Source of the DNA: Acidobacteriaceae bacterium
Lineage (GTDB): Bacteria > Acidobacteriota > Terriglobia > Terriglobales > Acidobacteriaceae
Assembly (NCBI GenBank): GCA_035944135.1
Contig: DASZBM010000002.1
Location: forward strand, 682,001-746,000
Reading direction: 5' to 3'
Length of the DNA stretch: 64,000 nt
Shown here in pieces: positions 1-18,062 of the stretch (position 1 is its first letter; each line of letters starts with the position of its first letter). The position numbers and the translations under genes are program-made. Under the pieces are notes generated by a model. It was not told the origin of the DNA, made no database searches, and worked only from the letters and a program-made list of their open reading frames with translations.

Positions 1-212
1 TTGCCAATTTCACAGCCATATTTGATTGCGGTATCGCCGACCGCAAAGTCCTTGAGCGCAAGTTTGTGCCCCAGCGGAATTGCTTGTTCCGCGTGAGCCT
101 TCAACGTTGAGTTATCCGTAAGGTTTCTACCGACGCAATCGGTGCCTGGTTCAAGATCAACGACTGCGACGCCAACGTTGTCTGCGGCGTCATGGACGAG
201 AAAGTGAATCAT
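1..212 (-). CDS. SuyA/UxaA-type SAF-domain small subunit, partial
   Basis: This gene reads leftward from an ATG at 212-210 and leaves the window without a stop, so only about 70 residues are visible. A clear AGGAG ribosome-binding site precedes the ATG. The visible protein begins MIHFLVHD and contains VGVAVVDL, IPLGHKLAL and KYG, the signature of the SAF domain in the small subunit of (2R)-sulfolactate sulfo-lyase (SuyA) and in the N-terminus of altronate/galactarate dehydratases (UxaA/GarD). As a SuyA, it would work with a SuyB subunit to split sulfolactate into pyruvate and sulfite. It lies 26 nt after the aldehyde dehydrogenase gene in the same direction, which supports a role after aldehyde oxidation. 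The domain family is secure. The choice between sulfolactate lyase and another acid-sugar dehydratase is inference, because the large subunit is outside the window. Confidence 0.7.
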   Translation of the reverse strand, partial: MIHFLVHDAADNVGVAVVDLEPGTDCVGRNLTDNSTLKAHAEQAIPLGHKLALKDFAVGDTAIKYGCEIG

Positions 213-238
213 CAACAGCTCCTTCTAAAGTCAATCCA

Positions 239-1717
239 TCAGATTTGGTTGCCGATGGAAATGTGTTTTGTTTCGAGGAAGGCATCCAGCCCTTCAATTC
301 CAAGCTCGCGCCCCCATCCGCTTTGCTTCACGCCACCGAATGGAGCACTACTGACGGTGGGTGCACCATCGTTGATGCCAATCGTTCCCGCCTCGAGCCG
401 CTCGCTGAGACGCAACATCCGATTGAGGTCGGAAGTCATGGCATAGGCGCTCAGGCCGTAGGGAGAACTATTTGCACGCTCCAGCACCTCCTCTTCTGTT
501 TCGAAGGTGGAGATTGGCGCGACGGGAGCAAAGGTCTCCTCACACATGCAGGTGGCCGAGGCTGGAACATCATCCAGAACCGTCGGCTCGATAAAGAACC
601 CTGTCAGGTTCCCGATGCGTTTGCCGCCTGTGAGGAGGCGGGCACCCTTGCTCACCGCGTCTTGTACCTGCTGCAGAGCTGCGTCCACGGCAGACTGATT
701 GATAAGTGGGCCGACGTCGATTCCTGGTTCGAGGCCGGGTCCGGTGCGAAGCTTCGACACGGCCGCGCAGAATCGGTCGGTGAACTCCTTGTGGATCTTC
801 TTCTGGACGTAAATACGATTGGCTGCAATGCAGGACTGACCTGTATTGCGGAACTTTGCAATCACTGTCTCGCGCACAGCAACGTCGAGGTCACAGTCAT
901 CGAAGACCAGCACCGGAGCAAGCCCGCCAAGCTCGAGGCAGAGGGGCTTGATTGTCTCGGCTGCATTTCGAATCAGAAGGCGGCCAACTTGCGTAGATCC
1001 GGTGAAACTAACCTTTCGACAAACCGGGCTCGAGAGCAGGTTCTCCGAGATCATTGCCGCATTGCCGATAACTAACTGAAAGACGCCACGCGGTATACCT
1101 GCAGTCTCCATACATTCCGCAAGATGTACGCCAGACAGAGGCGTTTGGCGGGCAGGCTTCAGGATGACAGGGCAGCCTGCGGCCAAAGCTGGCGCCACTT
1201 TGCGAACGGAAAGAACGAGAGGGAAGTTCCACGGCGCAATCGCCCCTACGACTCCAATCGGCGTTTTCACGATCAGATGCCGCTTGCCCTTCACTTGGTT
1301 CGGAATGCTGCGTCCGTAGACGCGGCGCGCCTCCTCGGCGAACCAATAAAGGTGATCTGCAGACATCGCAACCTCACCCTCACTCTGTGCAAGAGGTTTT
1401 CCGTTCTCCAGAGTTATCGTCCGCGCGATTTCGGTTCGCCTGCGTATCAACTCATCCGCAACGCGGCGCAGGATATTTCCGCGCTCCAGAGCGGAGAGTT
1501 GTCTCCACTCGCGAAACGCCTTGTCTGCTGCTTCAAGTGCGGCCGTGACATGTTCCTGTTGGATCGAGCAGACTTTTGCGAATGGTTTAGCAGTGGAAGG
1601 ATCGACGACCTCCATCTGTTCCGGTGTATTAATCCACTTACCGGCGATATACGAGCCATACGGATGCTGCTTGTCCTGCGAAAGGTCCGTCTTTTCTCCA
1701 ATTACAGTCGTCGACAT
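239..1717 (-). CDS. NAD(P)-dependent aldehyde dehydrogenase (GabD-like; candidate sulfolactaldehyde dehydrogenase)
   Basis: A 492-residue full-length aldehyde dehydrogenase. PWNFP at 162-166, K187 in ILKPA, FTGST at 238-242, the general base E262 in LELGG and the catalytic C296 in GQSC are all present. Overall it resembles succinate-semialdehyde dehydrogenases. In bacteria that degrade sulfoquinovose, a GabD-like enzyme oxidises 3-sulfolactaldehyde to sulfolactate (known for Pseudomonas putida). The neighbours here (aldolase upstream, SuyA-like subunit downstream) fit that step. Its ATG directly abuts the TAG stop of the GntR regulator gene, so the two are co-transcribed. Family assignment is firm; the substrate is inferred from context only. 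Succinate semialdehyde or another short aldehyde remains possible. Confidence 0.9.
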   Translation of the reverse strand: MSTTVIGEKTDLSQDKQHPYGSYIAGKWINTPEQMEVVDPSTAKPFAKVCSIQQEHVTAALEAADKAFREWRQLSALERGNILRRVADELIRRRTEIARTITLENGKPLAQSEGEVAMSADHLYWFAEEARRVYGRSIPNQVKGKRHLIVKTPIGVVGAIAPWNFPLVLSVRKVAPALAAGCPVILKPARQTPLSGVHLAECMETAGIPRGVFQLVIGNAAMISENLLSSPVCRKVSFTGSTQVGRLLIRNAAETIKPLCLELGGLAPVLVFDDCDLDVAVRETVIAKFRNTGQSCIAANRIYVQKKIHKEFTDRFCAAVSKLRTGPGLEPGIDVGPLINQSAVDAALQQVQDAVSKGARLLTGGKRIGNLTGFFIEPTVLDDVPASATCMCEETFAPVAPISTFETEEEVLERANSSPYGLSAYAMTSDLNRMLRLSERLEAGTIGINDGAPTVSSAPFGGVKQSGWGRELGIEGLDAFLETKHISIGNQI

Positions 1718-2383
1718 CTATTTCACCCACTGCGGTATAAATTTTCCTTGCCGTGCGAGCGTTTCGATCATCTCTCGCGCACCAACAACATGATTGCGTG
1801 CCTGACGCTCAGCCTCTTCTGCAAAGTTGTGCTCAATGGCTTCGACAATCCGATGGTGCTCGGCATGAATCACCGCCGGCTCGCGATATGCTCGGACTGT
1901 CATGCCGAGCGCGCGATATGTCTGCGAGAGTCGCATGAGTGTGTTGTTTCGTGCCAGCTCCACGATGCGCAGGTGAAATTGGCGATCGACTGACGCTGTC
2001 TCCGCGTCATCCTCCTGAGCCATCTTGTAAATTTGGTCAGCCATAGACCGAAGAGCTGCGATGTCGGCGCGCCCCGCGTTATTGCAGGCAAGCCGAGCTG
2101 CGAGGCCTTCAAGAACTTCGCGGAGCTGGTATGCCTCGCAGATGCGGCCCACATCCAGTTTGTCGACGAAAACACCCAGACGGTCGATGGATTCAACAAG
2201 GCCCAGCCACTGCAATTCCAACAAGGACTCTCGCACCGTGCCCTGAGCAACACCCAACTCCCGGGCTAAACTCTGCTGACTCAGTCGCTCTCCTGGCTTG
2301 CTTTCGCCGGAGAGTATTCTTCGTTCGATCTCTTCACGGATCTCATGTCTTGCCACTCGAGTTTTTGTAGCGTTCCGGGGCAT
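1718..2383 (-). CDS. GntR family transcriptional regulator, FCD subfamily
   Basis: A 221-residue regulator. Residues 12-70 form a GntR winged helix with a recognition helix near VAQGTVRESL. Residues 80-215 form an all-helical FCD ligand domain with likely metal ligands D133, H137, H176/H177 and H198. FCD regulators usually sense small organic acids or sugar acids and commonly repress a neighbouring catabolic operon. It sits inside the leftward catabolic set, immediately before the aldehyde dehydrogenase gene. An imperfect AT-rich motif (C-A/G-A-A/T-A/T-GATTGT) appears upstream of this gene, between the kinase and transporter genes, and in the divergent aldolase/hydrolase gap. It may be this protein's operator, but that link is inference. 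Confidence 0.9.
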   Translation of the reverse strand: MPRNATKTRVARHEIREEIERRILSGESKPGERLSQQSLARELGVAQGTVRESLLELQWLGLVESIDRLGVFVDKLDVGRICEAYQLREVLEGLAARLACNNAGRADIAALRSMADQIYKMAQEDDAETASVDRQFHLRIVELARNNTLMRLSQTYRALGMTVRAYREPAVIHAEHHRIVEAIEHNFAEEAERQARNHVVGAREMIETLARQGKFIPQWVK

Positions 2384-2427
2384 CAGCTTTTCCTTCAGCC
2401 GAACTCAATCGGCACAATCTCTAGCGG

Positions 2428-2438
2428 CAATAGATTGT
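2428..2438. promoter_or_regulatory. candidate operator half-site, cluster copy 1
   Basis: CAATAGATTGT lies 45-55 nt upstream of the GntR gene, in the 102-nt gap after the isomerase gene. It matches the copy at 7537-7547 at 9 of 11 positions and resembles the copy at 5099-5109. Recurrence in the gaps of one cluster suggests a shared operator, but the short length means chance cannot be excluded. Confidence 0.35.
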
Positions 2439-2485
2439 AAACTGTCAAACGTTCATACCCGGCCCGAAGTTTTTCCCATTCCTAA

Positions 2486-3859
2486 TCACTCCTGCCAATC
2501 CACGCGCAGCGCCCTCGCCAGCTTCCGGAAGCTCTCTGCGTGGCGCCCGAAGTGCAGCGTCACATGGTGGGGCAGTCCGGCATGAATCAGCCGGTCGAAG
2601 CGTTCAGGAACCTGTCCTCCATCCACCTCAACCAGCAGGCTATTGCCTGTGACTTTTCGGCGCGGCGGGAGAGAGCGGCCCTCGAATGCGGTCCAGTGAT
2701 ATCGCCCGTCGCACCGCCATATCCGCGAGACGGTGACATCGCCGGCGATCTGTAATGCGCCATCAACGACGAAAGGTCGCGCCCCGTTGAAGTGGCCGCC
2801 CAGCGTCGGCTCCTCGTCGCATCCCGTGGCGTTGCACATATCCAGCGGAGCCATGCCGGGATGCCAGAAGAAGATCGTATTTGCGTCGTGCTCCAGCCAG
2901 TCGGAAAGGAAACCTGGCCCGATACCCAGGAATCGGCCTATGAGAGCTCCGATTGCGCCGTCCACATCGCCTTCGATCGATACCGCGTTGCCTTCCGATC
3001 CAAGCCTGGAGACCGCAAAGTACGGCCACTGCCCGAGCACATTTGGCAACTCCGGCCAGCACTGCAGCGCCAGTGCGTCCAGATTCGTCTCTTGCATGAG
3101 GCTCTGAATCGAAAGATAAAAACGCGAATTGACCGAGAGCAGCTCGTCCGCAGGCCCAGAGCCGCCGCCAGTCTCACGCAGGCCAAGTGAATGAACCCGC
3201 TCAAGGTCGGCCGTGACCTGATCCGACGAAATCCCCTGTACGCGTTCAATGAACTGCGGAAGGCTCAGCGGATGAAGCTGCAATCCGAAGGTCTTACGAA
3301 TGAGAAACGGGTCGGCAGCCAGATCCAGGAACCCAGGTGCATGCGTGCCGACAACGCCAAGTTTCGCGGAACCTAACCGCTGAACTGTGTCGGCGAGTGC
3401 AATAGCATTGCGCAATTCCGCTTGAACGTCTTCCGGCGCTCCATACACGAACTCAAACGGGCGGTCTGCCTGGCGCAAGATCGACGCCCAGAGATGCTGA
3501 CCGACCAGCGAGCACGAGCTCACTTTTCCGTCGCCGGGTCGTTCGGGCGTCGCCCACAATATGACCGGACCGCGCCAGCGTTGGCTGACCGTGAGCGCAT
3601 ACTGGCCATCCGCGAGGGAAGGCTGAATCACGATAAGTGCACGGCAACGTCCCTCAACGATTTTGTCGAGCGTCCCATTCACGCTTTCATCATCGAGGAC
3701 GATCGTGTCGACCCCAATCGCGCTCGTACCGAGTTGCGCAAGAGCTTTGCGGCAGCGGTCGCGCATCTCCGCATTCCAGTCCTGGTCAAAGCCCGGGCGC
3801 TTGCGGCCGAAGATCAGAACTCCGACCGGAGCATTCAAGGTTGCTTGCTGCGTCTCCAT
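2486..3859 (-). CDS. L-fucose/L-arabinose isomerase-like protein
   Basis: About 457 residues from an ATG at 3859 preceded by TAGGAG; an in-frame start at 3883 would overlap the kinase gene and lacks this site. The protein has the two-part build of the L-fucose isomerase superfamily. The N-terminal half is Rossmann-like (VGVLIFGRKRPGFD, LIVIQPS). The C-terminal half carries GDVDGAI near the middle and ends with HHVTLHFG, typical of the metal-binding C-terminal domain. Members interconvert aldoses and ketoses or have unknown substrates. It starts 2 nt after the kinase stop, so the two are translationally linked. This fits an aldose-to-ketose step before phosphorylation, possibly sulfoquinovose to sulfofructose. 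That substrate is inferred; E. coli uses an unrelated isomerase (YihS) for this step. Confidence 0.7.
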   Translation of the reverse strand: METQQATLNAPVGVLIFGRKRPGFDQDWNAEMRDRCRKALAQLGTSAIGVDTIVLDDESVNGTLDKIVEGRCRALIVIQPSLADGQYALTVSQRWRGPVILWATPERPGDGKVSSCSLVGQHLWASILRQADRPFEFVYGAPEDVQAELRNAIALADTVQRLGSAKLGVVGTHAPGFLDLAADPFLIRKTFGLQLHPLSLPQFIERVQGISSDQVTADLERVHSLGLRETGGGSGPADELLSVNSRFYLSIQSLMQETNLDALALQCWPELPNVLGQWPYFAVSRLGSEGNAVSIEGDVDGAIGALIGRFLGIGPGFLSDWLEHDANTIFFWHPGMAPLDMCNATGCDEEPTLGGHFNGARPFVVDGALQIAGDVTVSRIWRCDGRYHWTAFEGRSLPPRRKVTGNSLLVEVDGGQVPERFDRLIHAGLPHHVTLHFGRHAESFRKLARALRVDWQE

Positions 3860-3861
3860 CG

Positions 3862-5058
3862 TTACTTTGCTCCTATCTCGCAAACAGCTCTGCCGAGTTC
3901 AGTGATGTGCTGCTCAAGTGGCCCAACCAGCGGACGCACGTAGTCAATAAATCCTTTGCTAACCGGAATCGGGCCGCTCTGCAACCACTTGTCCGGAATC
4001 GTGCGTTCGTGGCCGGCAGCCTGCGCCAAGGGAACGATTCGAGTGGCGTGTTCCGACCCGAGAGGCTCAAGCGCGATCATTACGTCTCTCTGTCCCGATA
4101 CCAACGCTTGCACGCCTGCCCGTCCTACCTGCTGCGCATCTTCAACATCACGCGCTGAAGTACAGGCCACGGATGCTCGTCCCAGTAGACCTGGCTTTTC
4201 ACTGCGACACCGAATGCCGAGACGTTGGCTGACAATCGTTGCGAGATGTTGCGCGACGCCGCCCGTCATCGGCCGCTTAAGGGGGTCGCTCTGGGAGGAA
4301 TCACTGCTCTCATACACGAGCGTTCCATCCGCATGCCTGATTCCCTCCGCCACCACGACAACGGCCCAACCAATCCGCTTAACAATGCGGCTCAAATCGG
4401 AAAGAAAGGCTTCAGTTTCGAACGGCACTTCGGGAACATAAATGAGGTGCGGGGCGCTGTCGTCATTCGTCCGTGCGAGTACCGTCGCGGCCGCAATCCA
4501 TCCGACCGAACGCCCCATCGTCTCCAGAATCGTGACCGGCTGGGGAAGGGAACGCAGGTCTGCAGCAAGCTCCTGTGCAGCCGTTGCGATATAACGTGCT
4601 GCACTCGCATACCCGGGGCAACGATCCGTTGCGGCAATGTCATTGTCGATCGTCTTCGGAACGCCGAGAACTCGAATATCAAGCCCCTGCGAGGTGCAGT
4701 GTTTGCTGATGATCTCGGCGCCACGCATCGTTCCATTGCCGCCGAGAAATAACAGGAGATCGATCTTCAACCGGTCGAGAGTCTCGAGCGATTTTTTCAA
4801 CTCCGATTCGGTCGGACTATGACGTGACGAGCCCAATGCCGCGCCGGGCGTCCTGCGTAAAAGCTCGAGATCAGCGATAGACGCATCCGTAAGATCGACA
4901 ATCCTGTCATCGAACAGGCCCCCGATTCCATAACGCGAGCCAAAGATCGATCGGATCGAAGGCTGCCGTTGAGCTTCCGCAATGATCTCCGCAAGACTGG
5001 CGTTGAAGACAGCCGTCGGGCCGCCGCCTTGCACGATCATCAGGTTTGATTCAGGCAT
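3862..5058 (-). CDS. PfkA-superfamily sugar-phosphate/sugar kinase (diphosphate or ATP dependent)
   Basis: A 398-residue phosphofructokinase-fold protein: GGGPT at 11-15, GGNGT at 106-110, PKTIDND at 134-140 with the catalytic Asp, and a later MGRSVGW segment. In E. coli PfkA numbering the 103/104 pair is Asn-Gly and residue 124 is Lys. Gly104 is typical of ATP users and Lys124 of pyrophosphate users, so the donor cannot be read from motifs. It differs clearly from the second family member at 41496-42533, which has GGDDT. In this cluster it lies between an isomerase and a LacD-type aldolase, so its substrate is probably the ketose made by the isomerase. Family is firm. Substrate, including sulfofructose, is inferred from neighbours. 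Confidence 0.85.
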   Translation of the reverse strand: MPESNLMIVQGGGPTAVFNASLAEIIAEAQRQPSIRSIFGSRYGIGGLFDDRIVDLTDASIADLELLRRTPGAALGSSRHSPTESELKKSLETLDRLKIDLLLFLGGNGTMRGAEIISKHCTSQGLDIRVLGVPKTIDNDIAATDRCPGYASAARYIATAAQELAADLRSLPQPVTILETMGRSVGWIAAATVLARTNDDSAPHLIYVPEVPFETEAFLSDLSRIVKRIGWAVVVVAEGIRHADGTLVYESSDSSQSDPLKRPMTGGVAQHLATIVSQRLGIRCRSEKPGLLGRASVACTSARDVEDAQQVGRAGVQALVSGQRDVMIALEPLGSEHATRIVPLAQAAGHERTIPDKWLQSGPIPVSKGFIDYVRPLVGPLEQHITELGRAVCEIGAK

Positions 5059-5092
5059 CGTTGAGTTCTTTGGTTGGGTCCCACGATATTAT

Positions 5093-5109
5093 CGATTGCG
5101 ATTGATTGT
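5093..5109. promoter_or_regulatory. candidate operator, cluster copy 2
   Basis: CGATTGCGATTGATTGT lies in the 58-nt gap between the transporter stop and the kinase start. It matches the sequence at 7531-7547 at 14 of 17 positions, while the surrounding bases do not match. This suggests an internal regulated promoter for the kinase, isomerase, regulator and dehydrogenase genes. Function is inferred from recurrence. Confidence 0.45.
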
Positions 5110-5116
5110 CAATGCA

Positions 5117-6466
5117 TTACGAAGCAGAATATGCCAGGCTCGTGGTCCGGTACTTTCGGCCCAGGATAAAGAGCGCGAAGGTCCCGATCAGAGGCATGAT
5201 TGCGATCAGGACGAAAACAGGCCGGTAGGAGAAGCGATCGACCAGAATGCCTGTGAGAAGAGGGAACAGCAGTCCGCTGAGACCGCCAGCCACTCCGGTC
5301 AGCCCGGTGGCACGGCCGACCTTCGCATCCGGAAACAGGTCGGTGATCGCTCCATACATATTTGCTGACAGGAAGTTGTGCGCGCACACTGCAACGCCGA
5401 TCAGCGCAAGTGCCAAACCGCTGCCGCGGGCCAACGGCACAAGCATGCTCGCGAAACAGAAGGCGCTGCTTCCGTACATTAGCCAGCGCCTCGTGCTGGC
5501 GACCGGAACGCCACGGCGCAGCAGGACTCCGGCAGCCCATCCGCCAAAAATGTTTCCACCGTCTCCCATCAGAAACGGAATCCAACTCACGAAGCCGACC
5601 TGCATCAACGTCATGTGGCGGACGCTGTAGAGGTAACTCGGAATCCAGTACCAGTAGAACTGAATTACAGGCCCAACGAAGAACCTGCACATCATCACGG
5701 CCCAGGCGGACGAATCGCTCAGCAGCTCGCGAAGTGAAATCTTTTTTTGCCCCTGCCGAACCTCTCTCGGTGGCACGACTTCACGCTGATAGACGAACCA
5801 CCAGGCGATCACCCAGATGATTCCGAGCGCTGACGGCACCAGAAACGCTGCGCGAAATCCGAAGCGGTGCAGAAGATACACGATCAGCGGAGGCGCGATC
5901 GTCGCTCCAACCATGCTGCCGCTGTTGAAGATGCCAATAGCCAGTGTTCGTTCCGATGGCGCAAAGAGTCTCGTCGCGGTCTTCACGCCACCTGAGAAGT
6001 TCCCGCACTCACCCGTTCCCATCCAATAACGGATCAATCCAAACTGAGTGCCAGACTTCGCAAACACCTGGGCGGCCGTTGCGGAAGACCACCACGCCAC
6101 CGCCAGGGAGATTCCCAGCCGCGTTCCCCAACGATCCATCAGGTAGCCCATTGGGAACTCGCCGGACATCATGCCGAACTGCAGCGCCGCGACGATGCGC
6201 CCATACTCCACGTTTGTCAGGTGGAAGATGGAACGAATAACCGGCGCCAGCACAGACAGCGTCTGACGATCGATGAAGTTGATTACCGTGATGGAAAACA
6301 GCAGCCCGAGGATGAGCCAGCGCCGCCGGTAGACCGCATCTTCCACACCCGAGCCGGCTGTTTCTCTCTGCCGTTCCGCTATCTCCGGCACGCGTACCCC
6401 ACTCTCACCCATCGACATTTTACGGAGCTCGGAACCTAACCGCGCATCGCTCGTGCTTCGGTCCAT
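5117..6466 (-). CDS. MFS transporter, hexuronate/organic-anion symporter type
   Basis: A 449-residue major facilitator protein with about 12 hydrophobic segments beginning near residue 50. The segment INFIDRQTLSVLAPVI in helix 1 and the first cytoplasmic loop GYLMDRWGTRLG resemble the anion:cation symporter family (ExuT/GudP-like), which imports acidic sugars with protons. That specificity would suit an anionic sugar such as sulfoquinovose. The longest frame starts at 6466 and overlaps the aldolase gene by 31 nt. ATGs at 6418 and 6412 would remove the overlap and lose only a charged leader; no start has a strong ribosome-binding site. Family is firm, substrate inferred from the surrounding catabolic genes. 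Confidence 0.85.
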   Translation of the reverse strand: MDRSTSDARLGSELRKMSMGESGVRVPEIAERQRETAGSGVEDAVYRRRWLILGLLFSITVINFIDRQTLSVLAPVIRSIFHLTNVEYGRIVAALQFGMMSGEFPMGYLMDRWGTRLGISLAVAWWSSATAAQVFAKSGTQFGLIRYWMGTGECGNFSGGVKTATRLFAPSERTLAIGIFNSGSMVGATIAPPLIVYLLHRFGFRAAFLVPSALGIIWVIAWWFVYQREVVPPREVRQGQKKISLRELLSDSSAWAVMMCRFFVGPVIQFYWYWIPSYLYSVRHMTLMQVGFVSWIPFLMGDGGNIFGGWAAGVLLRRGVPVASTRRWLMYGSSAFCFASMLVPLARGSGLALALIGVAVCAHNFLSANMYGAITDLFPDAKVGRATGLTGVAGGLSGLLFPLLTGILVDRFSYRPVFVLIAIMPLIGTFALFILGRKYRTTSLAYSAS

Positions 6467-7437
6467 GGCTTCGCCAGCCGCAGTGCACGATTGATATTCT
6501 CAATATTCTGCGCGCCCTGCGTGTCCATCCATCTCTCCAGTGCCTCCGGTCCCTCTTTCACGTACACGGGAACGCCATCCTGCCATGTTGCACGACCGGC
6601 CAGCACACCGTGGAACTCCACACCCGCATCTGCAGCCAGTTCCAGTGTCTCGATGAACACGGGGCTGCTCACCCCTGCAGAGAGATACACGATTGGCAGA
6701 TCTGTCTTGTCCGCGGCTTCCCGGATCAGTCTCTTCGCCTCGTCACGCGTATACGCTGCATCGCCCTTGAACGCCTTTGTTCCCTCGACGTACGCCATCT
6801 GAACGGGAACGTCGACCTTCAGCACGTCCGCGCCATAGCGTTCCTTCGCAAACTCTTCCATCGAAGCGAGAATGATCTCCGGCTTCCGGCGTGCGAACTC
6901 GGGTCCTTTTTCATCCTCGCCATGCACGCTGTAGGTGAGGAACTCGAGAAAGAACGGTATATCGGCTCCGCGACACTCGGCTCCCACACGTTCCACCCAG
7001 GCGTGTTTCTGTTCGTTTACCCACTCCTTTTCGAAGGGCGTGTAATACACAAGAATCTTTACTGCATCCGCACCGGCTTCCTTCAGGCGCAGCGCCGACC
7101 AGCCATCAGACAAGGACGGCAGCCGCTCCGGTTTATCCGGGCTGTAGCCGGCGTGCTCATAGGCCAGGAGCAATCCCTTCCCATTGATGTTGTGCGTAGC
7201 TTTTAAGCCGTACTGGACATCCAGCAGAATCGACGACGCATGCTTAGTGAGCGAACGCGCTACGATCTCCTTAAACTCGGACATCATGTCGTTCGTCGGC
7301 TCTTTGCCTCCGAGCTCCCGGACCAGCATCTGCTTCAACAGTCCTCTCTGATCCATGGCAGCCGCAGCGATAACTCCGCGATGATCGGCAACCGCTTTGA
7401 GTCCTGCGGCTTTTCCCGGTGTAAGCTTCTTGCGCAT
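6436..7437 (-). CDS. class I aldolase, LacD/YihT type (tagatose-bisphosphate or sulfofructose-phosphate aldolase-like)
   Basis: About 333 residues, close to LacD length and longer than E. coli YihT. It is a TIM-barrel class I aldolase. From the TTG at 7443, DAVKI lies at 126-130, LKVDVPV at 208-214 with K209 as the likely Schiff-base lysine, LSAG at 254-257 and GRATW at 283-287. LacD cleaves tagatose 1,6-bisphosphate; the related YihT cleaves 6-deoxy-6-sulfofructose 1-phosphate to DHAP and sulfolactaldehyde. AGGAG precedes both an ATG at 7437 and a TTG at 7443; I prefer the ATG. As first gene of the leftward set, it would receive the kinase product, and its aldehyde product could feed the dehydrogenase at 239-1717. 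Family is firm; the substrate needs assay. Confidence 0.85.
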   Translation of the reverse strand: MRKKLTPGKAAGLKAVADHRGVIAAAAMDQRGLLKQMLVRELGGKEPTNDMMSEFKEIVARSLTKHASSILLDVQYGLKATHNINGKGLLLAYEHAGYSPDKPERLPSLSDGWSALRLKEAGADAVKILVYYTPFEKEWVNEQKHAWVERVGAECRGADIPFFLEFLTYSVHGEDEKGPEFARRKPEIILASMEEFAKERYGADVLKVDVPVQMAYVEGTKAFKGDAAYTRDEAKRLIREAADKTDLPIVYLSAGVSSPVFIETLELAADAGVEFHGVLAGRATWQDGVPVYVKEGPEALERWMDTQGAQNIENINRALRLAKPWTEARAMRG

Positions 7438-7521
7438 CGTCAATCTGTCTCCTGATAATTTGTAAGCGGTGGGCGCGAGGAAATGAGTGGGCGAGGCCCA
7501 CTATATTGAACGCCACAGACA

Positions 7522-7552
7522 ATAGTCAATCGATTACAAATGATTGTACTAT
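7522..7552. promoter_or_regulatory. candidate operator in the divergent aldolase/hydrolase promoter region, copy 3
   Basis: The 151-nt gap between the leftward aldolase operon and the rightward hydrolase holds ATAGT-CAATC, ten bases, then GATTG-T-ACTAT: an inverted repeat with one extra base on the right arm. Inside it, 7531-7547 matches the copy at 5093-5109 at 14 of 17 positions. A regulator bound here could control both directions at once. The GntR/FCD protein of the cluster is the obvious candidate, by inference. Confidence 0.5.
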
Positions 7553-7594
7553 CGATGCGATGCAGCGACTTCGCAGCGATCGAAAGGTTGTGCC

Positions 7595-9709
7595 GTGAGC
7601 ACGCAAATTCAAAGACGTGACTTTCTCCTTGCAATGCTGGCCACTGGCGGTGCTTTCGCTTCCGGTTCCTTAGAGCGCGCCTGGGGGATGCAATCTCCAT
7701 CATCGCAGGATGCCGAACATGTTCGCCGCGTGTTGGTGATGTTCAAGTGTCACTTCGATGCCGGTTTTATTGATACCCAGCAACACGTTGTACAGAAATA
7801 CTTCCAGCAGTATTTCCCGGCAGCGATTCGAGTCGCGCGCGAGTCGCGTCAGCAGGGAAAGCCCCGCTACGTTTGGACCACCGGGTCCTGGCTGCTCTAC
7901 CGATATCTCGAACAAGCTTCCGGCACTGTGCGAAAAGACGCAGAGCAGGCAATCGCCGACGGCGATCTTGCTTGGCACGCGCTGCCGTTCAACTGGCAGA
8001 CGGAGCTGATGGATGAATCCCAGATCTCTGGCAGCCTGGCGATCTCTCGCTCGCTCGATACGAGGTTCGGTAAGAAAACTACGGGCGCGAAGATGACTGA
8101 CGTGCCGGGACATACGCGCGGCCTCGTTACGCCGCTTGCTCAAGGTGGCGTCACCTTCCTCGACATTGGCGTGAACGGCGGAAGTCGTCCCGCAACTCTC
8201 CCGCCGCTCTTCCTGTGGAAAGACACGCGTGGTGCCTCACTGACAGTCATGTATCACCACAACTACGGCGGGATCACAGTCGTACCCAACTCCGATCTCG
8301 CAATTGACATAGAAGTCCGCGGAGACAACAGCGGCCCGCACACTCCTGCAGAGATTGAAGCCATCTATGCGAATCTGAAGAAGCGTTTTCCGAACGCTGA
8401 AATCACAGCGACCGGCCTCGGCCAGATTGCCGAAGCCGTAGAGCCTCATCGCGCTGACCTTCCCGTCGTGACTCAGGAGATCGGCGATACCTGGATCTAC
8501 GGTGTTCCCAGCGATCCCATCAAGGTGGCACGCTACAGGGAAGTGTCCCGTCTGCGTAATGCATGGATTGCCCGTGGCGAATTTCAGTGCGGCGACAAGA
8601 CGGATCTAGCTCTCCTCTCCGATCTTCTCCTTGAAGCCGAACACACCTGGGGCACCGACACGAAGACGTGGCTGGACTTCGACAACTACAAGCCAGATCA
8701 GTTGGCCCGCATGCTGCCGACGAAGAATTACCAGGTAGTCACTTATAGCTGGCAGGAGAAGCGGCAGGACCTGTTCTCAGCGTTAGCGACATTGCCCGTC
8801 GCGCTGCAGAAGGAGAGTCAGGAGGCGATTGCGACGCTCGATGCTCACGAGCCATCACCCTCGAAGGGACATCACCTGCACGCCGGCGGAGAGATCGAAT
8901 CCGAACACTTCCGCGTGCAGATCAATCCGAAGACTGGAGCGCTCCACCGTCTGTTGAGCAAGAGCTCGGGCCAGGAATGGGCCTCGTCAGACAAGCCCCT
9001 CGCCGTGCTCGCCTATCAGACGCTTTCGACCGAGGATTACGACCGTTTCTTCAAGAACTACATCATTGCGAAAGCAGACTGGATCACCAAAGACTTCGGC
9101 AAACCAAACATCGATCGCATCGGTGCAGTTAGCAAGACGTGGTACCCAACCGTGGACTCAATCCACACGAAGAAGGACGACGACGGCCACACGATCATCA
9201 TCGCCTCGAGCATCAAGGATCGCAAAGCTTTCGAATCTGGTATGGCGTCATTCCCGCAGCGGTTCTATGTGGAGATCTCACTTCCGGATGCCGAACCCAC
9301 AATCTCAATGACCGTCTCGTGGTTCGGTAAACCGTCCACGCGTCTTCCGGAATCCCTCTGGCTTTCGTTCAATCCACAAACATCCGACGATGCTCAGTGG
9401 ACATTCGAAAAGTGTTCCGAGGCCATCTCACCGGACGATGTTGTCGTCGCCGGCGCCCGTCACATGCACAGCCTCTCTTCCGGCTTCAGCTGCCGCTCCG
9501 GTAAGAGCACTTTGTTTGTCGATACGATCGACGCTCCTGTTGTCGCACTCGGAGAGAGATCTCCGCTCAACTTCTCTCAGGACCAGCCAGACCTCAGCCA
9601 AGGCGTCCACTGCAATCTGTTCAACAACGCGTGGGGGACAAATTACATTCAGTGGTTTGGCGAAGATTGTCGACTGCGTTTCAAGCTCCGCGAATCACAG
9701 CAGGCATAA
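7595..9709 (+). CDS. Tat-exported GH38-like glycoside hydrolase (DUF5054-type)
   Basis: About 704 residues from a GTG at 7595 with GAAAGG upstream. The N-terminus has a twin-arginine motif (RRDFLL at 7-12) and a hydrophobic stretch, so it is probably exported folded. The core resembles the GH38 alpha-mannosidase fold: CHFDAGFID at 52-60 matches the HxD metal-binding motif, and DVPGHT at 169-174 matches the position of the GH38 nucleophile Asp. The C-terminal half is rich in beta strands, as in GH38 enzymes. The family I recall for this layout is DUF5054, which has no assigned activity that I know of. It is divergent from the aldolase operon across a shared control region, so it may release the sugar that the operon uses. 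Catalysis and substrate are inferred. Confidence 0.7.
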   Translation: MSTQIQRRDFLLAMLATGGAFASGSLERAWGMQSPSSQDAEHVRRVLVMFKCHFDAGFIDTQQHVVQKYFQQYFPAAIRVARESRQQGKPRYVWTTGSWLLYRYLEQASGTVRKDAEQAIADGDLAWHALPFNWQTELMDESQISGSLAISRSLDTRFGKKTTGAKMTDVPGHTRGLVTPLAQGGVTFLDIGVNGGSRPATLPPLFLWKDTRGASLTVMYHHNYGGITVVPNSDLAIDIEVRGDNSGPHTPAEIEAIYANLKKRFPNAEITATGLGQIAEAVEPHRADLPVVTQEIGDTWIYGVPSDPIKVARYREVSRLRNAWIARGEFQCGDKTDLALLSDLLLEAEHTWGTDTKTWLDFDNYKPDQLARMLPTKNYQVVTYSWQEKRQDLFSALATLPVALQKESQEAIATLDAHEPSPSKGHHLHAGGEIESEHFRVQINPKTGALHRLLSKSSGQEWASSDKPLAVLAYQTLSTEDYDRFFKNYIIAKADWITKDFGKPNIDRIGAVSKTWYPTVDSIHTKKDDDGHTIIIASSIKDRKAFESGMASFPQRFYVEISLPDAEPTISMTVSWFGKPSTRLPESLWLSFNPQTSDDAQWTFEKCSEAISPDDVVVAGARHMHSLSSGFSCRSGKSTLFVDTIDAPVVALGERSPLNFSQDQPDLSQGVHCNLFNNAWGTNYIQWFGEDCRLRFKLRESQQA

Positions 9710-9714
9710 TCGCG

Positions 9715-11016
9715 TCAGCCTGGGTGGAATCCGGCTCGCTGGAACGCAACAGCAACCTCCGGATTGAGCGCGAACGTGTTCCACACAAAACCGGTCCGCA
9801 GATTCTCCGCCATCACGACCGTGATGCCCAGATCGATTCCAAGGCAATCCGCGTCATACCAATCCGCCTGCGGATGAAACGCATCGCAGAATCCATATCG
9901 TCCCCACGCCTTGTCGCTATAGTTTTGCTTCAGCGCACGCAGCACTCGCAGGCAGTCCTCCGGCACAAATGCAAGCGACCCTCCGGCGGCACACGGCACA
10001 ACGGATCCATCAATGCCGCCATGCGCCGGCGGCCCACCCCACGCTCGATACCCATGTTGCGTGTCTGACGCCGAGATGCCCCAGTAGTCGGCCGAATACG
10101 GCTGCCCCAGCGAGAGGCAAAACGCCTCATGCGCACGTGTCGCCGTGATCGAATTCTCGAAATAGTTCGCGAACTTATCCCGCTTCTTACGAAAATCGAA
10201 CCACGCGTGGCTGTACTGATGAACGAAAAGCGGATCAGCGGCCGAGATATACGTGAAGTCCTCGAAGTGCATTACTGGCCGTTCCCACGCGTTCCAGCAT
10301 GCCGCGTCAATCGGATGCGTCGGTGATCCGAGCGCCAGCAGATACATCATCATGAGTTCGCAGTAGTGATTCCATCGACCGCTCAGAAAATTTCCATTCC
10401 GCCACCCCATCGCGAACATATCTCCGCCGTTCAGCATCCACTGCCAGTCGACGCGATGGTAAAGATCGGTTGCCAGTTGATAGATCTCACGATCGCGCCG
10501 GAAATACTGCCGCGCCGTCAGCACACCACAAAGAAGCAGCGACGTATCAATCGGCGAGACCTCACTCCCTTGATACGGATATCCGCTTTCGATGTCATTG
10601 AAGTGCGTGAAGAATCCATGATTGTCTTCCATCTTGTCGTGATGGAATCGCAGCGTATTCCGCACACGTGCGAGCACGGTCGCATGCGGAATGTACCCAC
10701 GCCGATCCGCAATGCATAGCGCTGTGAGCCCAAACCCGGTCGCAGCAATGGACGCCATGCGTCGTTTGTCGCGCACGCCTGGCGGGTCAAACGCCTTTGC
10801 GCGGTCCAGGACCTGGCCCGTCGTCGGACTACCCTGCTCCAGAAAGAACCTGCACGCGCGCCGCTGAAGATCGTCCAGAAAAGTGCTGTCTGCGGTCGTA
10901 GGTCGGTAGGGCGGGGCGGTCACCGAAGTCTGCGCAGCCTGGCCGCGCACCTTGGGCGCCAGCCCAGGCAGCGCAGCGGTTGCAGCCAGAAGCTTCAAAA
11001 CGTGTCGGCGGTCCAT
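9715..11016 (-). CDS. GH144-like glucoamylase-domain protein (candidate endo-beta-1,2-glucanase)
   Basis: A 433-residue secreted protein with an N-terminal MDRRHVLKLLAA signal, Tat-like. The body is an all-helical (alpha/alpha)6-type domain of the glucoamylase-like Pfam family. The closing part GIDLGITVVMAENLRTG fits the conserved GIDxGxxxxxxEN pattern of that family. Characterised GH144 members cut beta-1,2-glucan (sophorooligosaccharides), but many relatives are uncharacterised. It is the last gene of a leftward set with two GH39 enzymes and a TonB receptor. It ends 5 nt from the stop of the opposing GH38-like gene, with no terminator hairpin between. Family confidence is good; substrate is not determined. 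Confidence 0.75.
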   Translation of the reverse strand: MDRRHVLKLLAATAALPGLAPKVRGQAAQTSVTAPPYRPTTADSTFLDDLQRRACRFFLEQGSPTTGQVLDRAKAFDPPGVRDKRRMASIAATGFGLTALCIADRRGYIPHATVLARVRNTLRFHHDKMEDNHGFFTHFNDIESGYPYQGSEVSPIDTSLLLCGVLTARQYFRRDREIYQLATDLYHRVDWQWMLNGGDMFAMGWRNGNFLSGRWNHYCELMMMYLLALGSPTHPIDAACWNAWERPVMHFEDFTYISAADPLFVHQYSHAWFDFRKKRDKFANYFENSITATRAHEAFCLSLGQPYSADYWGISASDTQHGYRAWGGPPAHGGIDGSVVPCAAGGSLAFVPEDCLRVLRALKQNYSDKAWGRYGFCDAFHPQADWYDADCLGIDLGITVVMAENLRTGFVWNTFALNPEVAVAFQRAGFHPG

Positions 11017-11034
11017 CGCTTCTAGTGTGACGGA

Positions 11035-12633
11035 TCAGCGTTCCACAAGGACGACAGCAAGTCCATGAGCCGGCACCGTAAGCTGCAGCTTGCCATTCCG
11101 GAGATGCGTATGTTCCGCCGGAGCCATTGCGCCGGCGACCCGAAGCTCTTCAATCTGTCGCTGCGTCAAATCGCCCACCGGACGGCCCATCGCATTGAAC
11201 GCCTTGATCACATTGCCATGGTCATCGTCCACCCGCCAGATCTCCACCCCGGCATTTGCGGAAACGTGCTGCAGCGTGACCGTGAACGCCTTCGAAGGCC
11301 CGGCAGGCCCGTTCGGCATCGTGTAACGCGGCCCCGTCCCATCCGGCGGAGCATAGTCCCACAGCGCCACGGCCACGCGCCCGTTCGGTCCCGTCGTGGC
11401 CAGCACCGAGTCCGACTCAACATGAATCCTTTTCGTACCCAACTTGTGAAGCGCTCGGAATACGTTCAGCGACGGCTTGGGGATGTTGTCCGCGGCAATC
11501 AGGCCAAACCCGCCGTAGAACGGTGACCGTACCACGCCCTGCTCCTCAAACACATCGGAGAAGGACCAATACGCCATGTTGCTCACCAGGCCATCGCACT
11601 GCCGAATCGTATTCGCGAGCCACGGCCCCATGTAGTCCGTGTCCGTCACATCCGGCTCATTCGCATAACTGGCGTTGTACTCGGAAAAGATGAGCGGCAG
11701 GTTAGGGAAGGGCGAGCTCGCAATCTGATCGTGCACCTTTTTCACCGACCGATACACCATCTCGTCACGCGAAATCTGTTCATCCGTGCCAAACACATCC
11801 TTCGCCGTATCGTTCGCGTAAACGTGAGTTGAGACGAAATCGATCGGAACGTTCGCCTCTTTCACATGCTGAAGAAAGGGCGTCACCCACGCCGCCTGCG
11901 CGGTCGAAGGCCCTCCTACCTGAAGCCGCGGCGACACCGATTTGATCGCGCGCGCAGTGTGGTCATAGAGCTCGAAATACGTGGGCTGTTTCGGCTCGCC
12001 ACCCCAGAAGTCGAGGTTCGGCTCGTTCCACACCTCGAACTTCCAGTTCGCCACTTCATCCAGGCCATAGCGATCCACCAGGTGCTGCGCAAATGCGTGG
12101 ATCATCGCATCCCACTCAGCGTAGTCCTTCGGCGGCGAAACCACCGGATGGTACCAGAACGGATGCAGCTTATTCGGATCGGCGGCCATCTTCTTCGGCA
12201 TGAAGCTCATTTCGACATACGGCCGCACGTGCCGCGCCAGCAATCCGTCGTAGATCTGGTCAACGTAAGAGAAGTTGTATGCAGAGGTGCCCTGCGAAGC
12301 CGTACCCGTCTTGCCCGCCGTCTGCGCGAATTCGATCGTCTTTCGATCCGGATCGTACAGGCCAACCTCATCGTGGAAGATCGCGTGAAATCGGACCGAC
12401 TCGAAGTCCGTAGCTTCCTTCACCGTCATCAAATCTGTGCGGTAGCTCTCGCGCAGAGAGAGAATCGCCCGCCCCGATCCAAATGTCTTTTCCCAGAAGT
12501 GCGGAAACGGAGTTGTTGCTGCTGCGGCGTCAATCGTGACGTCGACTGGAACCGGCGCCGCGCTTTGCGCGATAGCAAGTGGAACCAACATCATCGTTGC
12601 GACAAAGGCCGCCAGCGCCCGCAGCTTACTCAT
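11035..12633 (-). CDS. GH39 family glycoside hydrolase (beta-xylosidase-like), copy 1
   Basis: A 532-residue secreted enzyme starting at MSKLRALAAF; a longer frame to 12741 would run deep into the upstream gene and is not used. A signal peptide ends near residue 23. The TIM-barrel carries the acid/base E204 in VWNEPN and the nucleophile E318 in FSEYN, as in GH39 beta-xylosidases. A C-terminal beta domain follows, with repeats such as VAVALWDY. The start overlaps the stop of the second GH39 gene by 8 nt (translational coupling). The two are paralogues sharing TTPFPHFWE, FGSGRA and PHFW-to-NEPN spacing, so this is a tandem duplication. GH39 also includes alpha-L-arabinosidases and others; the exact substrate is open. 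Confidence 0.88.
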   Translation of the reverse strand: MSKLRALAAFVATMMLVPLAIAQSAAPVPVDVTIDAAAATTPFPHFWEKTFGSGRAILSLRESYRTDLMTVKEATDFESVRFHAIFHDEVGLYDPDRKTIEFAQTAGKTGTASQGTSAYNFSYVDQIYDGLLARHVRPYVEMSFMPKKMAADPNKLHPFWYHPVVSPPKDYAEWDAMIHAFAQHLVDRYGLDEVANWKFEVWNEPNLDFWGGEPKQPTYFELYDHTARAIKSVSPRLQVGGPSTAQAAWVTPFLQHVKEANVPIDFVSTHVYANDTAKDVFGTDEQISRDEMVYRSVKKVHDQIASSPFPNLPLIFSEYNASYANEPDVTDTDYMGPWLANTIRQCDGLVSNMAYWSFSDVFEEQGVVRSPFYGGFGLIAADNIPKPSLNVFRALHKLGTKRIHVESDSVLATTGPNGRVAVALWDYAPPDGTGPRYTMPNGPAGPSKAFTVTLQHVSANAGVEIWRVDDDHGNVIKAFNAMGRPVGDLTQRQIEELRVAGAMAPAEHTHLRNGKLQLTVPAHGLAVVLVER

Positions 12634-14212
12634 GAGCGTCACTCCTATGGCTGGAACTGTGGCTGCTGCGCGTTGAGGCGTCTCCTCCAACGTGCAGCAG
12701 AACGAGCTCGTTAGGCTTGAGGTCGAGGTTGAGATTGCCATCGTGTAGCGTGAGGTGTTCCGCCCCGGGCAGAGCCGATGCCATATTCATCTGCTGCACC
12801 TGCGCTCGCGTCGGATAACGTGGTCTCCCCATTGCCAGGTATGTCTTCATTGGATTGCCGTGATCTTCATCGACTTGCTGAAGGGAAGTGGAAGCATTCG
12901 CCGCAACCCCACTGATATGCAGTGTCACGTGATGCGTCACGATGGACTCCCGCGGCTGATCCACCGACGCCAGATTCCACACTGCAATAGCCAGCGATCC
13001 GTCCGGCAGCCGCGTCACCAGTGCATCATGCGAAGGATTCGCAATTCGCTCGGTCCCAAGCTGATGCAGCAGCGCGAAATCATAGAAGCTCGGCTTATTG
13101 ATCCCGCCGGTGGCCCTCAACCCGAACTGCCCTTCAAACGGACGCTGCGCCGGCCCACCTTCCTCAAACACATCCGAGAACGTCCAGAACGACAGCATAT
13201 CCACGTGGCCATCGCACGTGCGAATCGCCTCGGCCAGCGCGGGCCCGACATACGGCGTGTCGCGCAGCGTGTCCTTGCCCGGTACATTCCACTCCGTCCA
13301 CAGCAGCGGAAGATGCGGCATCGGTGACGCATCAATCTGTCGCCTGACCTTGGCCACTGCTGCGCACGTGCGGTCCTCTTCGATGATGTCCTTGTCGCGC
13401 AGCGGCTGATCCTTGCCCAGCAGCCTTTCTACCGGTTCATCGTCATAGCCATGCGAGCTCACGAAATCCACCGGCACGTGATTCTCCGCCGCATAGCTAA
13501 GGAACCCTGGCACCCATGCCGCCGCGGCGGTCGCCGGCCCGCCGACACGCAGCCTCGGCGAAACCGACTTCAGCGCACGCGCGGTATGCGCATACAGATC
13601 GAAGTAAGAATCCTGCCGCGGAATCCCGCCCCAGAAGTCAATGTTCGGTTCGTTCCAGACCTCGAAGTACCACGTCGCAACCTCATCGATCCCAAAATGA
13701 TCGACAAGATCCTGCGCGAAGGCACGCATCAGATCGTCCCACCGCTCCATGCTCTTCGGTGGCGAAACATTCTGCTTGTACCAGAACGGATGCAGATCAT
13801 CGGGATTGAACGCCAGCTTCTTAGGCATGAAGCTGATCTCCACGACTGGCTTCACACCCTGCGCCAGCAGGCTCTCGTAGATCTCGTTCACATACGTGAA
13901 GTTGTAAACCGGATTGCCGTGCTCATCCTCGTTGTAAACCCCAAGCTCATCGTGAAGAATCGCGTGAAAGCGTAGATACTTCACATCCGTAGCTTGCTTC
14001 ACTGCTGTCAGATCGTTCTGATAGGCCGTGCGCATCACCAGCGCGGCACGCCCTGACCCAAACATCTCCTCCCAGAAATGCGGAAACGGAGTCGTCGTTG
14101 CGCGCGCATCGATGGTGATCTCTTCATCCTGCTGCGCGCACGCAAATCTTGTCCCGAGTAGCACAAACAGCGCTGCAGCGGCGTACACAATCGGCCTGCG
14201 AAGCGTCTGCAT
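12626..14212 (-). CDS. GH39 family glycoside hydrolase (beta-xylosidase-like), copy 2
   Basis: A 528-residue paralogue of the next gene. The signal peptide covers about residues 1-26 (ending FACAQQ). Acid/base E188 lies in VWNEPN and nucleophile E307 in LWTEWN. The nucleophile loops differ between paralogues (SEYNAS versus TEWNVPG), which suggests different substrate preference. It lies 215 nt downstream of the TonB receptor gene in the same direction. The gap contains a dispersed repeat, not a gene. Together with the receptor, the other GH39 and the GH144-like enzyme, it forms a polysaccharide-utilisation locus of the acidobacterial style, without a SusD. Confidence 0.88.
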   Translation of the reverse strand: MQTLRRPIVYAAAALFVLLGTRFACAQQDEEITIDARATTTPFPHFWEEMFGSGRAALVMRTAYQNDLTAVKQATDVKYLRFHAILHDELGVYNEDEHGNPVYNFTYVNEIYESLLAQGVKPVVEISFMPKKLAFNPDDLHPFWYKQNVSPPKSMERWDDLMRAFAQDLVDHFGIDEVATWYFEVWNEPNIDFWGGIPRQDSYFDLYAHTARALKSVSPRLRVGGPATAAAAWVPGFLSYAAENHVPVDFVSSHGYDDEPVERLLGKDQPLRDKDIIEEDRTCAAVAKVRRQIDASPMPHLPLLWTEWNVPGKDTLRDTPYVGPALAEAIRTCDGHVDMLSFWTFSDVFEEGGPAQRPFEGQFGLRATGGINKPSFYDFALLHQLGTERIANPSHDALVTRLPDGSLAIAVWNLASVDQPRESIVTHHVTLHISGVAANASTSLQQVDEDHGNPMKTYLAMGRPRYPTRAQVQQMNMASALPGAEHLTLHDGNLNLDLKPNELVLLHVGGDASTRSSHSSSHRSDAHE

Positions 14213-14219
14213 AACCGGT

Positions 14220-14316
14220 GAGACCCCCCTCCCCGCTGAAATTTGTGCAAAATCTTGATTCCAGGGGGCTTACCTTTGGACCTAATTTCGCAAAATATTG
14301 ATTCTAAAGAGACTTG
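14220..14316. repeat. dispersed intergenic repeat, copy A
   Basis: In the 215-nt gap between receptor and GH39 genes, a run ACCCCCCTCCCC is followed by TTTGTGCAAAATCTTGATT, then GGAC and TAA, then GCAAAATATTGATTCTAAAG. The same ordered blocks occur at 21050-21205, so this is a shared element and not a chance match. I recall similar tracts in intergenic DNA of other acidobacteria, from memory only. No coding potential is visible. Confidence 0.6.
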
Positions 14317-14427
14317 ATCGCTTCAGGATGGGCGTTGGTTTTCTGGTGTTTCGAGTCCGTCATTGAAGGCAAGAAAACGAGGAGGGTGCACCTGCCGGGG
14401 CACCCTCCACCAGTACATTCATCCACG

Positions 14428-18003: not shown

Positions 18004-18062
18004 ATTGCCTCCAAAGGGGTACAGCATCGTCCGGCAATGGGAGCCCGGATCGTTCAGTTTCT

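Follow-up and report, generated by a model that had tools for sequence, protein, structure and literature searches.

At the left end of a 64,000-nucleotide stretch of an Acidobacteriaceae genome (assembly GCA_035944135.1, contig DASZBM010000002.1, here C2, positions 682,001-746,000; hereafter the window), and continuing past its left edge, lies a row of ten genes that is likely to take the carbon of sulfoquinovose, a sugar of plant sulfolipids, completely to pyruvate and sulfite, with dihydroxyacetone phosphate (DHAP) as a further product. From the gene content and order, the protein families and the conservation and co-occurrence observed in other genomes, we infer the substrate, the individual reactions and co-transcription. 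In the proposed pathway, a major facilitator superfamily (MFS) protein would import the sulfosugar, a FucI-fold isomerase would convert sulfoquinovose to 6-deoxy-6-sulfofructose, a PfkA-family kinase would phosphorylate sulfofructose at C1, and a class I aldolase would split sulfofructose 1-phosphate into DHAP and (S)-sulfolactaldehyde. A GabD-type dehydrogenase would then convert (S)-sulfolactaldehyde to (S)-sulfolactate, SlcC and ComC would carry this through sulfopyruvate to (R)-sulfolactate, and SuyAB would yield pyruvate and sulfite, with an FCD protein presumably regulating the row. The genes are listed below from left to right in window coordinates or in those of the left-hand stretch L003, from which 18000 is subtracted to give the window coordinate.

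L003:14700-15683, minus strand, SlcC-like 2-hydroxyacid dehydrogenase, left of the window
L003:15676-16743, minus strand, ComC-like dehydrogenase of the Ldh_2 family, left of the window
L003:16765-17940, minus strand, SuyB, left of the window
1-212, minus strand, SuyA-like small subunit of 93 amino acids, truncated at the window edge (complete at L003:17931-18212)
239-1717, minus strand, GabD-type aldehyde dehydrogenase (PF00171, Aldedh), candidate sulfolactaldehyde dehydrogenase
1718-2383, minus strand, GntR/FCD transcription regulator (PF00392 and PF07729), within the gene row
2486-3883 (start possibly the ATG at 3859), minus strand, SqvD/SftI-like candidate sulfosugar isomerase of the FucI/AraA fold (NF048012)
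3862-5058, minus strand, PfkA-family kinase (PF00365), candidate sulfofructose 1-kinase
5117-6466, minus strand, MFS transporter (MFS_1), candidate for sulfosugar or anion uptake
6436-7443, minus strand, class I aldolase of the LacD/YihT superfamily (PF01791, LacD/DeoC class), candidate sulfofructose-1-phosphate aldolase
7544-9709, plus strand, exported-looking DUF5054 protein (PF16477), candidate glycosidase, divergent to the gene row

A preliminary description of the window had listed the aldehyde dehydrogenase, FCD regulator, isomerase, kinase, transporter, aldolase and SuyA-like genes; all of its reading frames are open and lie where it placed them, and the genes have the families given in the list. 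The cluster extends beyond the left window edge to about C2:678700, adding the SuyB, ComC-like and SlcC-like genes. Because the ten genes share one strand and the listed open reading frames are spaced by only -31 to +102 bases, they probably constitute a single co-transcribed operon. The earlier proposal of a candidate for each step is supported by gene families and order. Its view of the FucI-type isomerase and PfkA-type kinase as unusual does not hold, both being the known families of SqvD and SqiK of the second sulfoglycolytic Embden-Meyerhof-Parnas pathway, sulfo-EMP2 (PMC9594981).

Recurrence of the gene row

The same gene order, which the preliminary description proposed to seek elsewhere, recurs in other genomes, so that the cluster is more than a chance arrangement. 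A search of genome contigs yielded 21 loci, all with acidobacterial titles (seven 'Acidobacteriaceae', nine 'Acidobacteria', three Granulicella and two Terracidiphilus), and the addition of stretches from family and phylum searches, with duplicates removed, brought the relatives to 27, two of them from one genome. Among the 19 relatives whose sequence extends 5 kb or more past the isomerase on its downstream side, 18 carry the series GabD-SuyA-SuyB-ComC-SlcC there, in many cases behind an FCD gene. The exception, L014, comes from a metagenome-assembled genome (G064, titled Granulicella sp.) of the same genus as the source genome; here the two halves stand about 14 kb apart on one contig, the distant part holding GabD, SuyB, ComC, SlcC, the aldolase and the MFS gene, with a GH42 glycoside hydrolase (GH) and another exported-looking protein in between. 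The kinase is present in 25 of the 27 relatives; in the other two, L005 and L085, the contig breaks off inside the isomerase or a short way upstream of it. The position of the aldolase varies among loci.

The two halves also occur together. Within 200 genomes of the family, the source genome included, isomerase scores against NF048012 reach 155-179 bits in ten and at most 107 in the rest, none above the cut-off (one of the ten, G016, has a second match of 143 bits at a contig end). All ten top loci have kinase, GabD or FCD neighbours, and 12 of 20 lower-scoring loci examined adjoin an SSF symporter instead. A SuyB search with a limit of E 1e-60 picks out 12 of these genomes, namely the ten just named, at 85-100% identity, and two more at 71-72%. 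The hypergeometric probability of this co-occurrence is 2.9e-15 with kinship ignored, and the ten carriers are spread over seven genus labels. A phylum-wide draw found the isomerase in 4 of 396 genomes, all in Acidobacteriaceae, and its distribution is thus patchy; the one new carrier among these four, G549, was used as a test and has the full gene row.

Two plasmids bear more distant relatives. On that of Candidatus Chlorohelix (NZ_CP128401.1, L076 1233-15795), a kinase relative (33% identity, annotated as diphosphate-fructose-6-phosphate phosphotransferase) is the immediate neighbour of an isomerase relative (28%). The surroundings include a GabD-like gene, a nitrite/sulfite reductase, siroheme and Gfo/Idh/MocA genes and a phosphoglycerate-dehydrogenase-like gene, and the region, a possible sulfosugar cluster in a member of the Chloroflexota, offers an independent pointer to the proposed function. 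Plasmid pZZM402 of Zymomonas mobilis ZM4 (L075 128-9427) carries a class II aldolase, an aldose epimerase, an isomerase relative 34% identical to that of Chlorohelix, Gfo/Idh/MocA and MFS genes and a TonB receptor, and could be a sulfoquinovose cluster.

Predicted desulfonation genes

The gene left of the window, which the preliminary description had reasoned might be either a SuyB or an ordinary altronate/galactarate dehydratase large subunit, proved SuyB-like, followed by ComC- and SlcC-like genes. Over 391 residues it shares 68% identity with a gene of Cupriavidus pinatubonensis, paired there with its SuyA and close to hpsN/hpsO. Its identity to a gene of Paracoccus is 71-72%, and the neighbours of the latter include a hydroxyacid dehydrogenase, an Ldh-family oxidoreductase and a gene of the sulfate-exporter type. 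Its identity to six other UxaA-type large subunits is 30-39% (30% for Escherichia coli UxaA), and the ordinary dehydratase was rejected on this difference. A SuyB search of a plasmid collection returned 314 matching records, 13 at 60-80% identity and 301 below 60%, and the only other PF04295 match of the genome is on contig C10. The SuyA-like protein has a SAF domain (23.5 bits, cut-off 21) and is 54% and 52% identical to the small subunits beside the Cupriavidus and Paracoccus SuyB, respectively. On these subunit identities, the predicted pair matches SuyAB, the (R)-sulfolactate sulfo-lyase.

The ComC-like and SlcC-like proteins belong to the right families and are conserved beside SuyAB; the best NCBIfam match of the former is L-sulfolactate dehydrogenase (279 bits, cut-off 500). 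The GabD protein has among its PDB matches 8c54 (2.5e-131, rank 5), deposited as a succinate semialdehyde dehydrogenase (SSADH), which we take to be the sulfolactaldehyde dehydrogenase of Rhizobium leguminosarum. All 15 full-length cluster copies examined have arginine at both the Arg171 and Arg289 positions. These two residues are the proposed sulfonate binders, but in human SSADH the equivalent arginines bind succinate semialdehyde, and there are proven sulfolactaldehyde dehydrogenases without them (PMC10599462), so that the pair is permissive rather than diagnostic.

Isomerase, kinase, aldolase and transporter

The isomerase has no Pfam match, PF02952 included, and its only NCBIfam match at E <= 1e-10 is NF048012, the sulfoquinovose isomerase SftI (2.4e-49, 168 bits, full length). 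In an AlphaFold2 model (mean predicted local distance difference test, pLDDT, 84) the predicted fold is FucI/AraA, the best PDB matches being L-arabinose isomerases (TMq about 0.8), with L-fucose isomerase FucI (1fui) at TMq 0.74. Residues E304, D328, H341, H439 and H440, candidate metal ligands, are invariant in 18 of 18 copies, and E304 lies within an EGD motif that arabinose isomerases also have.

The kinase matches PF00365, the Pfam family of SqiK, at 179 bits. By sequence it is nearest to pyrophosphate (PPi)-dependent enzymes, in the subfamily of PPi-dependent phosphofructokinases (PPi-PFK). All 20 aligned copies, 19 acidobacterial and one from Chlorohelix, have GGNG where two PPi-dependent structures have GGGD; we take the glycine at this position, an aspartate in the two PPi-PFKs, to suggest ATP as the donor. 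The one other PF00365 protein of the genome, at about window 41640-42530, scores higher (347 against 180 bits).

The aldolase is a class I enzyme (PF01791) above the cut-off of subfamily PRK12858, and not of the class II SqiA type (PF01116). It is 25% identical to E. coli YihT. A blastp search at E 1e-3 gave no match of YihS or YihV to the proteins of the row, and the families differ. The NCBIfam models nearest to the MFS protein are D-galactonate and PgtP-type transporters, both below their cut-offs.

Evidence on the other side and rival readings

Several observations weigh against the sulfoquinovose pathway. The NF048012 score of the isomerase is far under the curated cut-off of 700, the model at E <= 0.001 also matches 115 of the 200 family genomes and, likewise below the cut-off, 2 of 14 control genomes, and a second protein of the same genome reaches 93 bits; because the match is below cut-off and widespread at that threshold, the assignment depends on the gap in scores and on the neighbouring genes. 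The SlcC-like and ComC-like proteins are 40% and 35% identical to their Paracoccus counterparts, and in plasmid searches genes of other context score as well or better, so that both are assigned mainly by position. The aldolase is nearer to LacD, the tagatose-1,6-bisphosphate aldolases (2e-92 among PDB matches), than to YihT (2e-9). Neither a mutarotase nor a sulfite-handling gene was seen in the gene row. A regular-expression scan of the five GH31 proteins of the genome found none with the motif [QEHM]DWxGxRxT, which was read from the YihQ sequence and which we take to be a sulfoquinovosidase signature. Finally, 2 of the 200 family genomes (G165 and G004) have SuyB at 71-72% identity without a high-scoring isomerase. 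In these (L103 and L104), the neighbours of SuyB include hydroxyacid dehydrogenase, FCD-like and Gfo/Idh/MocA genes, with a creatininase in L104, and no isomerase lies within the 19.5 kb fetched around each SuyB; they are perhaps a different sulfonate locus.

The kinship of the aldolase with LacD bears directly on the substrate. Sulfofucose (6-deoxy-6-sulfo-D-galactose) could be isomerized to sulfotagatose, phosphorylated and split by a tagatose-bisphosphate-type aldolase, the lower half being unchanged. The AraA/FucI fold acts on galacto-type sugars, and GH42, GH59, GH2 and GH97 genes, of families several of which often hold galactosidases, lie near some copies of the cluster. A tandem sulfofucose-SuyAB pathway is moreover known in Paracoccus (PMC12421959). 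Against this, the only matching isomerase model is that of a sulfoquinovose isomerase, the known sulfofucose route is of the Entner-Doudoroff (ED) type with sulfotagatose undetected there, and sulfofucose is possibly rare, or else commoner than recognised (PMC12421959). We regard sulfofucose as an unlikely substrate.

It is still less probable that two unrelated modules, one for sulfolactate degradation and one for the breakdown of some other sugar, merely stand side by side. The two SuyB-bearing genomes just described, the separated halves in G064 and the shifting location of the aldolase would fit such an arrangement; however, 18 of the 19 relatives have a single row in which GabD connects the two halves, isomerase and SuyB co-occur ten for ten, and the row (the row only, no genome-wide search having been made) is without a tripartite or ABC-type importer such as that beside the Paracoccus SuyB. 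Slightly less probable again is that the row serves a hexuronate or similar non-sulfonated anionic sugar with the SuyAB-like pair as a sugar-acid dehydratase: SuyB does belong to the UxaA/GarD superfamily and the MFS protein is nearest to sugar-acid transporters, but the identity gap of SuyB (68-72% against 30-39%), the isomerase matching the SftI model only, the SlcC/ComC-like partners and the nitrite/sulfite reductase near the Chloroflexota relative all speak against it.

Exported-looking protein, sulfite handling and neighbouring genes

The divergent protein had been described as an exported GH38-like hydrolase. It is indeed exported-looking, with a Tat-like RRDFLL signal read by eye; the GH38 assignment is unconfirmed, because DUF5054 is the sole Pfam match, comparison with solved structures gave no convincing sequence match (one chance match, E 0.91), and the structure model, from a two-row alignment, is unusable at pLDDT 33. 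A DUF5054 gene lies near or inside the cluster in 4 of the 27 relatives, so that in some genomes it may be linked to the pathway: it is full length in L020 and in L110 (G549, there between kinase and aldolase), and reduced to C-terminal fragments of 125-149 residues in L014/L086 and L089. That some Acidobacteriaceae use sulfoquinovose carbon fully through one hybrid sulfo-EMP-SlcC/ComC/SuyAB operon and, in addition, that the DUF5054 protein represents a third kind of sulfoquinovosidase, acting outside the cell or in the periplasm, is a combination we consider unlikely. In that case the region, with the galactosidase-type genes nearby, would be devoted to the head-group sugars of plant thylakoid lipids.

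The glycosidases near the cluster vary, with GH42 in L008 and L105, GH59 in L009, GH2 in L006, GH2 and GH97 in L024 and GH3 in L023. No SqgA-type (GH188) gene was noticed in the gene row, no GH188 search having been made; GH188 sulfoquinovosidases are described in PMC10755693, which does not mention Acidobacteria. Sulfite-handling genes, raised in the preliminary description, were not seen in the cluster. The genome encodes three Oxidored_molyb proteins, of which one is MsrP above cut-off and none reaches the cut-off of SorA, SorT or SoxC, together with a pair of TauE-type transporters and a NirA/sulfite-reductase-like protein. All of these lie outside the cluster, SoeABC and other sulfite enzymes not having been searched for.

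Beside the cluster, window 9715-18027 encodes a TonB-type outer-membrane protein, a putative glycoamylase and a tandem pair of GH39 proteins. On the other side, L003 10023-14396 holds a divergent 416-amino-acid protein with no Pfam match, a xylose-isomerase-like TIM barrel and an SSF symporter, the first two of which also occur close to the L014 kinase. Some of the loci share, just upstream of the kinase, a TalB-type transaldolase (L010 7737-8738, L013 and L016) and an exported-looking TIM-barrel protein (L010 6378-7232, L012, L013, L017 and L024). As parts of the pathway, flanking genes were rejected: matches to the TonB-type porin are weak (23-31%) and other neighbours appear in few loci or none, the GH39, glycoamylase, cupin-like, SSF symporter and transaldolase genes recurring rarely or never.

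Relation to known pathways

Sulfoquinovose production is estimated at 10 billion tons per year (PMC12890257). Its breakdown by C-C cleavage has mostly been described as shared, one bacterium excreting sulfolactate or 2,3-dihydroxypropane-1-sulfonate (DHPS) and another desulfonating it, and the coexistence of both halves in one bacterium has been called unusual (mBio 2025, PMC12421959). If correct, the pathway proposed here would extend the use of sulfolipid carbon, with release of sulfite, to a phylum that the literature searched does not name for them. A search of open-licence papers found no sulfoglycolytic operon in Acidobacteriota, a scope that leaves novelty unproven.

The upper half is closest to sulfo-EMP2 of Bacillus urumqiensis and Megamonas, with its enzymes SqvD, SqiK and SqiA: it has a FucI-family isomerase, a PF00365 kinase and a sulfolactaldehyde dehydrogenase (PMC9594981), to which the PF00365 kinase and the candidate isomerase and dehydrogenase of the present row would correspond, with the same proposed intermediates. 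They differ in the aldolase (class I, PF01791, here; class II SqiA, PF01116, there), in that no SqvB was seen in the present row, in the proposed end products (sulfite and pyruvate here, sulfolactate or DHPS there) and in phylum (Acidobacteriota here, Firmicutes there). With sulfo-EMP of E. coli (YihS, YihV and YihT) the row shares the class I aldolase superfamily, whereas its isomerase and kinase are not of the YihS and YihV types. Hybrid sulfo-EMP/EMP2 clusters that swap isozymes are known (PMC9594981, PMC13372026, PMC12890257); in those of Yersiniaceae and Vibrio, SqiA replaces YihT, the reverse of the present row, and no SuyAB end is mentioned for them there. The Vibrio pathway was demonstrated in PMC13372026, whose text does not mention Acidobacteria. 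According to PMC12890257, class I aldolases occur in Actinobacteria, class II in Firmicutes and both in Proteobacteria, with hybrid combinations in Proteobacteria and Actinobacteria; a literature search on class II aldolase hybrids gave no relevant paper among the matches listed.

SuyAB is also the end of two other systems. In Thermotogae and Chloroflexi, the extended sulfoglycolytic transaldolase pathway (sulfo-TAL) has a cluster that combines SuyAB with an SqvD-type isomerase (PMC9594981), as the present row appears to, but it uses a transaldolase in place of the kinase and aldolase found here. Paracoccus wurundjeri, with a tandem sulfofucolytic ED and SlcC/ComC-SuyAB pathway, has the lower half proposed here and reaches sulfite within one bacterium, but its upper half is an oxidative ED route acting on sulfofucose (PMC12421959). 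Within the phylum, the peatland acidobacterium SbA5 has suyAB, slcC and comC, and SbA4 also has suyAB, with an importer reported absent (PMC6018796); the main text of that paper does not mention sulfoquinovose, whereas the present row adds a proposed upper half for a sulfosugar to the sulfolactate genes. If the proposed pathway is correct, it offers a reason for SbA5 having these genes and no known sulfolactate importer, as sulfolactate may arise inside the cell. The component kinds of the present cluster are thus known, and what no paper searched describes for Acidobacteriota is the joining of a class I aldolase to a FucI/PfkA-type upper half with the predicted desulfonation genes in the same cluster.

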